The position numbers were made by a program, and so were the translations under genes. 64,000 bases of DNA from Niallia circulans (GTDB lineage: Bacteria; Bacillota; Bacilli; Bacillales; Cytobacillaceae), in the NCBI RefSeq assembly GCF_003726095.1, contig NZ_CP026031.1:558001-622000 (forward strand), given 5' to 3'. The notes below the pieces were generated by a model that did no database searches, was not told the origin of the DNA, and saw only the letters and a list, made by a program, of their open reading frames with translations. Each line of letters begins with the position of its first letter. Position 1 is the first letter of the stretch. This document shows, in pieces, positions 16,707-63,650 of the stretch.

Positions 16707-16758
16707 AAAAGGATAAGAAGAACCAGGACATGATAACTTTAAGTATGTATTGGTTGAT

Positions 16759-16826
16759 CTTCTGTCCTTTTACCTGAGATTGTGAATCCTTCGGTGCCGT
16801 TTTTTACAGAACGGTCTCTCCAGAAG
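16759..16826 (-). promoter_or_regulatory. Glycine-type riboswitch aptamer
   Basis: Read on the minus strand the segment has the conserved glycine aptamer blocks in order: CTTCTGGAGAG, a short hairpin (ACCGTT..AACGG), CACCGAAGG, AATCTCAGGTAAAAGGACAG, and AAG closing P1 (CTTCTG with CAGAAG). Only one aptamer is visible; the second of a tandem pair is absent or decayed. A terminator follows, suggesting transcriptional control of the ACT/PFL operon. Glycine as ligand is inferred from the motif. Confidence 0.85.
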
Positions 16827-17042
16827 CTGCTCCTGTTATAGTTTGATCCATAACATTCATAGCATGCAATTATTTAAGAAATATAATGTGATGTTAACAG
16901 TTTTTTATCAAGTGGTCAACAGAATATTTGCAAACATAGTGTCATTTAGATGGGGGAGAATAAGTCTTAAAACGTTAAGAAAGAAATGGATACAAAACGA
17001 AATACTGTTCATGATAAAACGGAAAGGATGGAGGTGAGAAAA

Positions 17043-60610: not shown

Positions 60611-60713
60611 GGTTTTAGGTTTCTGTGAAATTATGTGATATAATGACTCAGTTATAATATTATTAAAAAAATAAATTAATCCAGATAGACATATTTAGGT
60701 AGGAGTGAAATTT

Positions 60714-62546
60714 TTGAAAATTAGAGAAGATATTCGTAACATTGCTATTATTGCTCACGTTGACCATGGGAAAACAACTTTGGTTGACCAGCTGTTAAAA
60801 CAATCCGGCACATTCCGTACAAATGAACATGTGGAAGAACGTGCAATGGATTCCAACGATTTAGAAAGAGAACGTGGAATAACAATATTAGCGAAAAATA
60901 CTGCTATTCAATATAAAGATAAACGTATTAATATCCTAGACACACCAGGACATGCTGACTTTGGTGGAGAAGTAGAGCGTATCATGAAAATGGTTGATGG
61001 TGTTCTACTTGTTGTTGATGCATATGAAGGTTGTATGCCACAAACACGCTTCGTATTAAAAAAAGCTTTAGAGCAAAACTTAACTCCAATTGTTGTTGTT
61101 AACAAAATTGACCGTGACTTTGCTCGTCCTGCTGAGGTTATTGATGAAGTATTAGATTTGTTTATTGAGTTAGATGCGACAGAAGAACAATTAGAATTCC
61201 CTGTTATCTATGCATCAGCTATTAATGGTACAGCTAGCACAAACCCTGAAAAACAAGATGAAAACATGCAATCATTATATGATGCAATTGTAGATCATAT
61301 TCCTGCACCAGTTGACAATCGCGAAGAGCCTTTACAATTCCAAGTAGCTCTTTTAGATTACAATGATTATGTTGGAAGAATCGGTATCGGTCGTGTATTC
61401 CGCGGTACGATGAAGGTTGGTCAACAAGTAGCGTTAATGAAATTAGATGGAACAGTGAAGCAGTTCCGTGTAACAAAAATCTTTGGTTTCTTCGGATTAA
61501 AACGTCAAGAAATTGAAGAAGCATACGCTGGAGATTTAATCGCAGTATCAGGAATGGAAGATATAAACGTTGGTGAAACAGTATGTCCATTTGAACATCA
61601 AGATGCACTACCAGTTTTACGTATCGATGAGCCAACTCTTCAAATGACATTCTTAGTTAATAACTCTCCTTTTGCAGGTAAAGAAGGTAAATATTTAACT
61701 TCAAGAAAAATTGAAGAAAGATTGCGTGCACAATTAGAAACAGATGTAAGTTTACGTGTTGAAAATACAGACTCACCAGATGCATGGACGGTATCAGGAC
61801 GTGGAGAACTTCATTTATCTATCTTGATTGAAAATATGCGTCGTGAAGGTTACGAGCTTCAAGTGTCAAAACCTGAAGTTATCGTTAAAACTATTGATGG
61901 AGTTCGTTGTGAGCCAATTGAACGTGTACAAATCGATGTTCCTGAAGAGCATACAGGTTCAGTTATGGAATCGATCGGTGCTCGTAAAGGAGAAATGTTA
62001 GATATGATCAACAACGGTAATGGACAAGTTCGTTTAATCTTTAACGTACCTGCTCGAGGACTTATTGGTTATACAACTGAATTTTTAACATTAACACGCG
62101 GTTATGGTATCATCAACCATACATTCGATAGTTATCAACCAATGGCATCAGGTCAAGTTGGTGGACGTCGCCAAGGTGTATTAGTAAGTATGGAGTCTGG
62201 AAAATCATCTACTTATGGAATTATGCAAGTAGAAGATCGTGGAATTATCTTTGTTGAAGCTGGGACTGAAATTTACGAAGGAATGATTGTTGGGGAACAT
62301 ACTCGTGAAAATGACATCACTGTTAATATCACAAAAGTAAAACAAGCAACAAACATCCGTTCAGCAAACAAAGACCAAACGGCAACAATGAAAAAACCAA
62401 GAATTATGACTTTAGAGGAATCTTTAGAATACTTGAACGATGATGAGTATTGTGAAGTAACTCCTGAATCAATTCGTTTACGCAAAAAAATCTTAAATAA
62501 AGCAGAACGTGAAAGAGCTGGCAAGAAGAAAAAATCTGCTGAATAA
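60714..62546 (+). CDS. typA: Translational GTPase TypA/BipA
   Basis: 610 residues. G1 [11 protein letters not shown]2 region with RGITI, G3 [12 protein letters not shown]4 NKIDRD, then EF-G-like domains III and V and the BipA-specific C-terminal domain. It binds ribosomes and helps assembly and stress growth. AGGAG is eight bases before the TTG at 60714, giving MKIRED as in B. subtilis (MKLRND); the GTG at 60705 is within the ribosome site. Strong codon bias. Confidence 0.96.
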
Positions 62547-62557
62547 TAATAGATAAG

Positions 62558-62588
62558 GAAGTCATCTGTTGATGGCTTCTTTTTTTTA
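62558..62588 (+). terminator. Terminator of typA
   Basis: GAAGTCATC-TGTT-GATGGCTTC (one G-T pair) is followed by a run of eight T residues, 12 bases after the stop codon. Confidence 0.92.
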
Positions 62589-62692
62589 TTTTGAGTGAAG
62601 TGGAGGTATAGGCTTTAACTGAGAATGCAAGCAAGGAAACTAAGTGATTGTGAACAAAGAAGAGTCTTCTGTGACTGTAAGGAAGTTGGAAG

Positions 62693-63092
62693 AATGGTGT
62701 TCATTATTTTGAATTGTGAGAGAGGGAAACGGAGTTCATGGAGAAATGAACACCATTTTTGCATTGGGAGAGCAGAAGAATGGTGTTCATCGAGGAAATG
62801 AAAGCCACATTCAGCATGGAGAGTGTAGAAAATGGTGTTCATCGAGGAAATGAAAGCCACATTCAGCATGGAGAGTGTAGAAAATGGTGTTCATCGAAGG
62901 AATGAAAGCCACATTCAGCATTGGGAATGTAGAAAATGGCGTTCATCAAGGGAATGAAAGCCACATTCAACATTGGGAATGTAGAGAATGGTGTTCATCG
63001 AGGAAATGAAAGCCACATTCAGCATGGAGAGTGCAGAAAATGGCGTTCATCAAGGAAATGAAAGTCACTTTTGGCATGAGGACAAAGAAATC
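62693..63092. repeat. Tandem array of 52-bp units with flanking inverted repeat
   Basis: Six units begin at 62781, 62833, 62885, 62937, 62989 and 63041, each exactly 52 bases apart. Units one and two are identical; the others differ by up to about ten bases and the last decays at its end. A diverged unit precedes them (62741-62792). AATGGTGTTCATT (62693-62705) and AATGAACACCATT (62745-62757) form a 13-bp perfect inverted repeat at the array's left edge, and every unit repeats half of it. Since 52 is not a multiple of three, the array is not a coding repeat. It fills most of the gap 62547-63249. Confidence 0.9.
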
Positions 63093-63249
63093 AGAGTGAA
63101 AGGTCATGGAGACCATCTCTCGTAGCTCTCATAAGTTAAACCCAATCTCTAATCGTAATAGAAGCACATATTCAAAAATAAATTAGTTGTATTCTTCAAC
63201 CAACCTCTAAACTTATAATTAGTAAATAAAGGAAAATGAGGAATGGGAA

Positions 63250-63614
63250 ATGAAAATTTTTCGATTTAATAAAGAGTCTGGAAAGCAAATCACTCAATTT
63301 AATTCCTGTTTTATTATGAATCGCATCCTGGGAACTAAGAAAGAAGCATATATTGGATGTATGTATCTTGAAGAAAATGGGATTATTGGTTTACATCAAG
63401 CTGTAATACCACAACTTCTGTTAATTGTTAGCGGCATAGGCTATGTTCGAGGAGAAAAGAATGAAGGTTTCAAGTTAGAAGTGGAGAGGCGGTGTATTGG
63501 GATAAAGAGGAATGGCATGAAACGAAAACAGATATTAGCTTAACAGCCATCGTTATTGAAAGTGAAGAGATAATGCCTGATTTAATGATACCATTAAAAG
63601 AGAAGAGCATATAA
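63250..63614 (+). pseudogene. Cupin-domain protein with a -1 frameshift
   Basis: The frame from the ATG at 63250 reads a small cupin (GIIGLHQAVIPQLLLIVSGI, YVRGE) to about 63482. There the sequence lacks one base: the other frame continues smoothly as GEAVYWDKEEWHETKTDISL and then AIVIESEEIMPDL, to a stop at 63612-63614. As written the first frame ends early at 63543 with a nonsense tail. Either the gene is inactivated or there is a sequencing error. GAGGAATGGGAA precedes the ATG. It would be about 120 residues when intact. Confidence 0.75.
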
Positions 63615-63650
63615 AAAAGAAGACCTTACTAAAAGATCTTCTTTTTATTT
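63614..63650. terminator. Terminator between the cupin pseudogene and ylaI
   Basis: AAAAAGAAGA (63614-63623) pairs with TCTTCTTTTT (63637-63646) around a 13-nt loop, with A and T flanks for both strands. Confidence 0.8.

Follow-up and report, generated by a model that had tools for sequence, protein, structure and literature searches.

The tandem array behind typA in this Niallia genome looks like one member of a Bacillaceae-wide class of intergenic tandem arrays, which appear old and maintained and not the product of a one-off duplication. Each unit carries a palindromic TTCAT/ATGAA dyad and repeats every 52 bp, and many array positions are shared between species. We found no description of such arrays in the literature searched; the nearest described kind are the STAR elements. 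Tentatively, we favour a role at the level of double-stranded DNA, weighed below against several alternatives.

The array downstream of typA

Within the window, that is, the whole 64-kb stretch of DNA analyzed, Tandem Repeats Finder (TRF) places the array at 62774..63068 with a period of 52, 5.7 copies and a score of 462, the top of 12 rows; the runner-up scores 70. The array proper (62786..63062, + strand) contains six full TTCAT-N7-ATGAA dyads, and its purine-rich strand is the + strand, which is the leading strand here. These dyads start at 62786, 62838, 62890, 62942, 62994 and 63046, each step being exactly 52 bp, and exact dyads of this form occur nowhere else in the 64-kb window. A sequence-only reading of this DNA had reported six units at exact 52-base spacing, two of them identical, and both observations hold, the identical pair being the units that start at 62786 and 62838. 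The same reading gave every unit the same motifs: TTCAT-N7-ATGAA is indeed present in six of six, but GGTGTTCAT occurs in only four of the six full dyads, with GGCGTTCAT in the remaining two. The spacer of the unit at 63046 is degraded. An example of the 25-bp locus-specific spacer, running from the right arm of one dyad to the left arm of the next, lies at 62808..62832 (+).

A diverged dyad, TTCAT-N6-ATGAA (62735..62750, +), stands 51 bp ahead of the first regular dyad. It corresponds to the diverged seventh unit noticed earlier, whose 13-bp inverted repeat is perfect, although the dyad centre is 6 bp and not 7. The left arm of this repeat, AATGGTGTTCATT, occupies 62693..62705 (+), and the right arm, AATGAACACCATT, occupies 62745..62757 (+), overlapping the diverged dyad. 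The lone left arm at 62693..62705 is probably a remnant of an older unit.

Upstream of the array lies the ORF at 60705..62546 (+), which we take to be typA/bipA, a name that comes from the sequence-only reading and from inspection by eye. A terminator-like stem-loop with a T run (62555..62582, +) follows it on its 3′ side and precedes the array, in agreement with the earlier placement of the array past a terminator. Downstream is a 97-aa ORF (63250..63543, +), presumably cupin-like as judged by eye; within 63250-63615 its end seems to continue in another frame, possibly reflecting a disrupted gene. The array is non-coding, as had been stated: no frame is open throughout 62786-63092 on either strand, the longest stop-free runs covering 42-43 of 101-102 codons. 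An Rfam search of 62500-63260 matched no family up to E = 1. Elsewhere in the window, a glycine riboswitch aptamer at 16752-16833 (-) scores 54.3 bits, relative to an Rfam gathering score of 32.

Distribution in Niallia and other Bacillaceae

Genome-wide and cross-genus searches give further arrays, supporting the proposed membership of a repeat family. When two units were used as BLAST queries, 6 of 41 genomes gave matches, and every one was a Niallia. A covariance model of the unit (R1), which is a narrow model, gives at least 147 matches in this genome (G000). Across the family, R1 matches 7 of 193 genomes, six of them Niallia; within the genus it matches 6 of 13. This genome carries at least 21 arrays of three or more units, comprising 20 fetched loci and one array at 86 kb that came from a repeat scan covering 32% of the genome.

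Beyond the genus, a pattern of two dyads 51-53 bp apart, applied to named species genomes, matched at least 118 stretches, nearly all from Bacillaceae and near kin. The genera include Neobacillus, Metabacillus, Cytobacillus, Sutcliffiella, Heyndrickxia, Ureibacillus and Lysinibacillus; the single hit in Saprospiraceae (L088), probably coincidental, was left out. For a second model (R2) we took one unit from each of 81 loci among the other 117; at E 1e-6 it has matches in 60 of the order's 397 genomes and in 32 of its 133 genera. A typA match is absent from these 117 other-genus loci, which are stretches of 8 kb or shorter. One closed 4.8-Mb genome (G495) holds roughly 15 arrays within the 200 kb at 3.0-3.2 Mb of its contig C1 (L294-L303), belonging to several families and reaching up to 36 units in one case.

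Conservation of array positions

Related species inherit the positions of arrays, but the number of units there changes. We matched loci by BLAST, using flanks with the arrays masked. For at least 11 of this genome's 20 array loci, the corresponding place in its relative G001 also carries an array of at least three units. Ten of these have both flanks alike and one (L030) has a single flank alike; L021 adds a place with two units there. All ten fetched loci of a second relative, G012, match a locus in this genome, nine of them with arrays on both sides. A stretch of Niallia circulans NBRC 13626 (L102:4600-6100) shares 100% identity with G012 and 92% with this genome, which places the source of the window near N. 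circulans within Niallia. Since the relatives were represented by array-bearing loci only, plus sample stretches of G001, losses are undercounted; one G001 place facing a G000 array is without a three-unit array (L167 against L174).

Unit numbers at the typA locus are 6, 6 and 7 in G000, G012 and G001, respectively, and at other orthologous loci, in the same order, 17/3/6, 15/7/6, 3/8/13 and 4/7/4. The suggestion of recent duplication at typA thus survives in part: the identical pair fits recent local copying, but the locus itself is old, with an array behind typA also in G012 and G001.

Unit design and array edges

The 52-bp unit consists of an arm of about 10 bp, a 7-bp centre, a second arm of about 10 bp and a spacer of about 25 bp. 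Niallia arms read GGYGTTCAT and ATGAAMRCC. Elsewhere they include TGTCCTTCAT and ATGAAGGACA, AGGTCTTCAT and ATGAAGACCT, and others, with TTCAT/ATGAA and the 7-bp centre in this second set (other genera) fixed by the search pattern. Spacers differ between loci and are homogenized within each array, while the arms are conserved. Consecutive cores with at most one mismatch are separated by 52 bp in 616 cases, 51 bp in 46 and 53 bp in 15, other distances being rare, and the centre is 7 bp in 706 core-like pairs near arrays, the next commonest length being 23 (9 pairs); most loci behind both counts were selected with a pattern of 7-bp centres and 51-53-bp steps. Interior units vary least in TTCAT/ATGAA (diversity 0.024), where the search rule itself helps to keep the value low. 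Diversity rises to 0.107 in the arm extensions, which played no part in the search, and to 0.188 in the spacers and 0.205 in the centre.

The edges of the arrays indicate where the amplified unit begins and ends. Array starts (n=99) show a lone right half in 43 cases and a lone left half in 2, with both in 6 and neither in 48; array ends (n=99) show a lone left half in 38 and a lone right half in 3, with both in 5 and neither in 53. These asymmetries, 43 versus 2 and 38 versus 3, imply an amplified unit bounded by two successive dyad centres. At readable edges, the junction with unique DNA usually falls inside a dyad centre, a position not expected if each dyad were simply a dimer site. Some loci also contain higher-order repeats, of 104 or 156 bp.

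Periods and other array families

TRF was run on 1.664 Mb of this genome that had not been chosen for arrays (four 400-kb blocks plus the window; periods of at least 30 bp and at least 2.5 copies). Nine rows had a period of 52 bp, and two of these lacked the TTCAT core. Six loci had a 41-bp period, in which ATCAGCCAAA recurs every 20-21 bp; one of the six was also read as 62. The remaining rows comprised multiples on the same loci, three rows of 30 bp, one of 45 bp and a 156-bp repeat consisting of small ORFs; a further 13 rows of 20-28 bp were left unsorted. At about 4621850-4622850 in G000, tandem 156-bp units each encode a peptide of about 39 aa ending in ASWFFC and are followed by an ORF resembling an ABC exporter. 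By eye, this arrangement resembles a cluster of multi-copy bacteriocin or lanthipeptide precursors.

We also tested the array loci in 3.45 Mb, some of which had been picked for a 52-bp period, for open reading frames: 13 of 187 fell inside such frames, including those of 30 and 45 bp. The 174 loci outside open frames have periods of 52 bp (142 loci), 41-42 bp (12) and 50, 51 or 53 bp (six), the rest being 24-29, 62, 83, 103, 104, 125, 150 and 156. The 200 kb from G495, a genome selected because of its many arrays, yields mainly 52, along with 53, 42, 62, 104, 124-125, longer composites and one period of 26; G313 yields 52 and one of 34. Most periods lie near whole helical turns at 10.4 bp, whereas 24-29, 34 and 150 are off. 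Few of these periods are independent, and several families share 52 bp. The 150-bp repeat at L188 7276-7883, not a helical multiple, has four copies with 98% matches.

Arrays with other arms share the 52-bp period. Five of 13 such arrays reach 9-10 of 10 arm matches, as against 2 of 136 shuffled units; a 7-bp centre is possible in three of the five and is not clearly preferred in other-arm families. Arrays of the GGGAAAAGAG-AAGCGTG-CTCTGTGCCC type at G000 88181-88458 and 4870551-4870787 have 7 and 8 of 10 arm matches, respectively. Grouping the array families by shared 8-mers lumped almost all of them together, and the result was discarded.

Strand bias and replication direction

In this genome, dnaA lies at 3.924 Mb and a dif-like site, which matches the dif motif with 3 mismatches, at 1.379 Mb. 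On the leading strand, 19 of 20 arrays have purine fractions of 0.653-0.779; the exception, at 1276 kb, has 0.482. Comparison intergenic DNA averages 0.526, with a maximum of 0.63 among 88 segments. The 86-kb array stands at 0.52, so that the 21 known arrays comprise 19 with leading-strand purine skew, two unskewed and none reversed. The two strand changes fall in the intervals 3.45-4.63 Mb, which holds dnaA, and 1.04-1.395 Mb, which holds the dif-like site. The array at 1276 kb (L167, matching L102) has 12 units, sits about 100 kb from the dif-like site and is without purine skew.

Orientation can part from that of neighbouring genes: L031 in this genome and L037 in G001 are leading-strand oriented despite both flanking genes pointing the opposite way. 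For 126 arrays, with flanking genes called by longest ORF, the 5′ and 3′ flanks relative to the array are co/co in 42, co/anti in 26, anti/anti in 22, anti/co in 9 and incomplete in 27, both flanks being called for 99 arrays. In the 41-bp family (six arrays, at G000 239k, 249k, 3065k, 4688k, 4759k and 4785k), five of six have a leading-strand purine excess with the motif pointing either way, which suggests that the skew belongs to the array DNA and not to the dyad.

The leading-strand rule extends to related genomes. It is obeyed by 18 of 19 places in G001 (19 of 20 with one partial match), the terminus being placed between 2.6 and 2.9 Mb by GC skew, and by 9 of 9 in G008. Outside Niallia, with the terminus taken as the antipode of dnaA, 47 of 56 places follow it among the matches listed: 10 of 12 in H. 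coagulans 36D1, 10 of 11 in N. mesonae (one further place being undecided), 4 of 5 in G211, 1 of 2 in G212, 2 of 4 in G213, 2 of 3 in G214, 9 of 9 in G313, 3 of 3 in G360, 4 of 5 in G429 and 2 of 2 in G495. As R2 was built from purine-oriented units, its strand is the purine call. The repeat scan added exceptions, namely several G495 arrays (one with the TTCAT core) and one other-arm array of G313. Given that the purine-rich strand tracks the leading strand in Niallia, we infer that replication direction either shapes the arrays or is read from them.

Comparison with described repeats

Several kinds of bacterial intergenic repeat vary in copy number, including the bcr repeats of the Bacillus cereus group, MIRU-VNTR and other minisatellites. 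The Niallia arrays, too, are direct repeats between genes whose copy number varies and whose spacers are specific to each locus, features that they share with STAR (Staphylococcus aureus repeat) elements. STAR elements lie between genes as direct repeats of a short conserved core, have recurring spacers particular to each locus, and expand and contract (PMC3532100). Their core is a 14-bp GC-rich sequence, T(G/A/T)TGTTG(G/T)GGCCC(C/A), with at least 40 bp between cores; their function is described as unknown, and their loci differ between staphylococcal species (PMC3532100). In contrast to STAR, the Niallia arrays are built on a TTCAT/ATGAA dyad, have a period that is nearly always 52 bp and occupy many positions common to species. 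Inspection of the unit alignments and consensus did not find the 14-bp STAR core. Nor are the arrays CRISPR-like, in keeping with the sequence-only reading, as the spacers repeat inside each array.

At the level of architecture, a parallel exists with sopC of plasmid F, whose ten functional 43-bp repeats each span about four helical turns (PMC7205306). Both are tandem arrays of palindromes near whole helical turns, with protein binding shown for sopC (PMC7205306) and putative here. The difference is that sopC is one array per plasmid with its own SopB, whereas here at least 21 arrays share one chromosome and the binder is putative.

Possible roles and origins

The chain of RNA hairpins proposed by the sequence-only reading finds partial encouragement in two results. 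Arms outside TTCAT/ATGAA covary between loci (95 double-change cells versus a shuffled mean of 43.4), and the predicted fold of 62686-63092 lies well under shuffles on both strands (z -5.8 and -6.6), although tandem inverted repeats fold well under any kind of selection. An RNA hairpin is expected to tolerate G.U above A.C. Counts favour G.U in the Niallia alignment alone (25 versus 5, mostly from one pair), but they are level over all loci (89 versus 86), and A.C is the commoner in the other-genera alignment (24 versus 32). Compensation within arrays is not seen, interior units having no pairing excess either within the same dyad (z 1.0) or across the spacer (z 0.7). Watson-Crick pairs within a dyad seemed in excess in one count, at 2552 compared with 2524.8 expected and with 0 of 500 shuffles as high, but that count included degraded edge units, and the excess vanishes for interior units. 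Promoter-like sites in 62400-63320 do not exceed those in shuffles (2 versus 2.5), and 22 of 99 arrays run antiparallel to both flanking genes. A hairpin chain functional in RNA, for example in stability or as a protein sponge, is therefore improbable. Palindromes that persist between lineages without pairing at the level of units agree better with a dimer that recognizes each dyad in double-stranded DNA.

The reading that we prefer, while giving it somewhat less than an even chance, treats the array as a series of dyad sites in double-stranded DNA, phased at five turns and probably occupied by a putative dimeric protein. The selected feature would be the double-stranded DNA itself, with a putative dimeric DNA-binding protein sitting on each dyad; the five-turn spacing would bring all bound dimers to one face in a regular nucleoprotein array, and units could be gained and lost via unequal recombination or replication slippage. 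Arm constraint, shared positions, near-helical periods and the lack of RNA-type pairing favour this reading, and edges at dyad centres, off-helical periods, the small number of independent periods, the absence of normalized A-tract phasing in Niallia, the lack of a clear preference for a 7-bp centre in other-arm families and strand-rule exceptions outside this genome stand against it. Among the structural, protein-binding and neutral roles named earlier for the typA array, the near-helical periods of several families favour one at the DNA level. A bolder and unlikely extension would treat the arrays as helically phased dyad stations, in sequence-unrelated families (52 and 41-42 bp) with family-specific dimers, that read or record replication direction as a chromosomal counterpart of the sopC type. 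If they are DNA stations, they would form a layer of chromosome organization in these bacteria that, as far as we found, is previously undescribed. Two other DNA-level candidates were rejected. Intrinsic curvature gave a positive un-normalized A-tract test that was lost in Niallia on normalization (z -0.4); other genera give z 4.6, with three other harmonics raised too. Clusters of Chi (AGCGG) or of the SpoIIIE SRS (GAGAAGGG) on the purine-rich strand fared no better, AGCGG occurring in 7 of 115 units (expected 6.7) and GAGAAGGG in none (expected 1.1).

Two further readings, neutral or selfish minisatellites and Rho-dependent terminators, are not mutually exclusive with the preferred double-stranded DNA array. 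The arrays may be neutral or selfish minisatellites arising by slippage, unequal exchange or template switching at hairpin tips, with period and palindromes as mutational by-products. Differing unit numbers between species, the higher-order repeats, and patchy presence (R1 in 6 of 13 Niallia genomes, R2 in 32 of 133 genera) are in line with such an origin, as are junctions at dyad centres, which tip-directed breakage or template switching predicts. However, arms are more conserved than spacers within arrays, an identical TTCAT-N7-ATGAA and 52 bp recur across many genera, positions are retained between species, and near-helical periods occur in families with different arms; on balance we regard neutrality as a serious though rather unlikely account. 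If it is correct, the arrays point to a mutational process that counts helical turns. Alternatively, the arrays could be one-way Rho-dependent terminators that block head-on and antisense transcription while purine-rich RNA made in the leading direction escapes. Rho of B. subtilis favours long (>150 nt) stretches of C over G together with T-richness (PMC13323073). Head-on RNA across an array would be long, C-rich, G-poor and T-rich: by composition, 19 of 20 arrays fit, their C minus G reaching at least the 97.5th percentile of 150-nt genome windows; 16 reach the 99th and 11 the 99.9th. Such skew is missing at the 1276-kb array, at the 86-kb array, which lies outside the 20, and at several G495 arrays, and terminators of this kind do not require the dyad, the 7-bp centre or regular periods. 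The flanks, with the 5′ gene along and the 3′ gene against the array in 26 cases and the reverse in 9, would suit a terminator, but the bias is equally expected from avoiding divergent promoters. From composition and gene order, we consider this role decidedly unlikely; one-way terminators, if present, would help explain the exclusion of head-on transcription from leading-strand genes. In every reading, the arrays offer a possible typing marker.

Finally, the arrays might be REP-like elements served by a RAYT (REP-associated tyrosine transposase). REP elements are short intergenic palindromes that often occur in groups (PMC3733652), and a RAYT-like gene is present here. RAYT-like Y1 proteins of a lower-scoring class, a grouping of our own by score, occur in 10 of 10 array-bearing genomes and in none of 7 array-negative Niallia genomes, leaving aside a 44-aa fragment in G006; the seven negatives were judged by R1 alone and may be one clade. 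The G000 protein scores 74.9 bits with the NCBIfam model REP_Tyr_transpos, just under its cut-off of 80, and matches the solved TnpArep chain 4er8 (E 0.0019). This match of presence and absence looked perfect, but the flanks of the genes are without array units. At 12 loci, one without a gene call, 320 bp on each side of the 11 genes contained no array, with single arm-like matches (at most two mismatches) at four. Unlike REP elements, the arrays also lack a GTAG or CGTC tag and have a strict head-to-tail 52-bp arrangement; by inspection, the consensus columns beside the dyad are GAAAAG or AAA and CAAAA. A search for single units in 1.664 Mb of this genome gave 12 solo dyads outside arrays versus 6 in one shuffle, which is no clear excess, and 11 of the 12 are without a degenerate neighbour. 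RAYT service is accordingly the most improbable of the readings weighed here. The same count led us to drop a transposon reading with terminal inverted repeats, whose predicted boundaries fit. About 9 of the 11 RAYT-like gene flanks carry, by eye, another palindrome (at L259, L304, L305, L307, L308, L309, L311 and L314), either GTGNCAG..CACC, often followed by ATAAAAAGACA, or GGGGTCAGTCCCC. Judged by eye, these palindromes are perhaps the genes' own REP.
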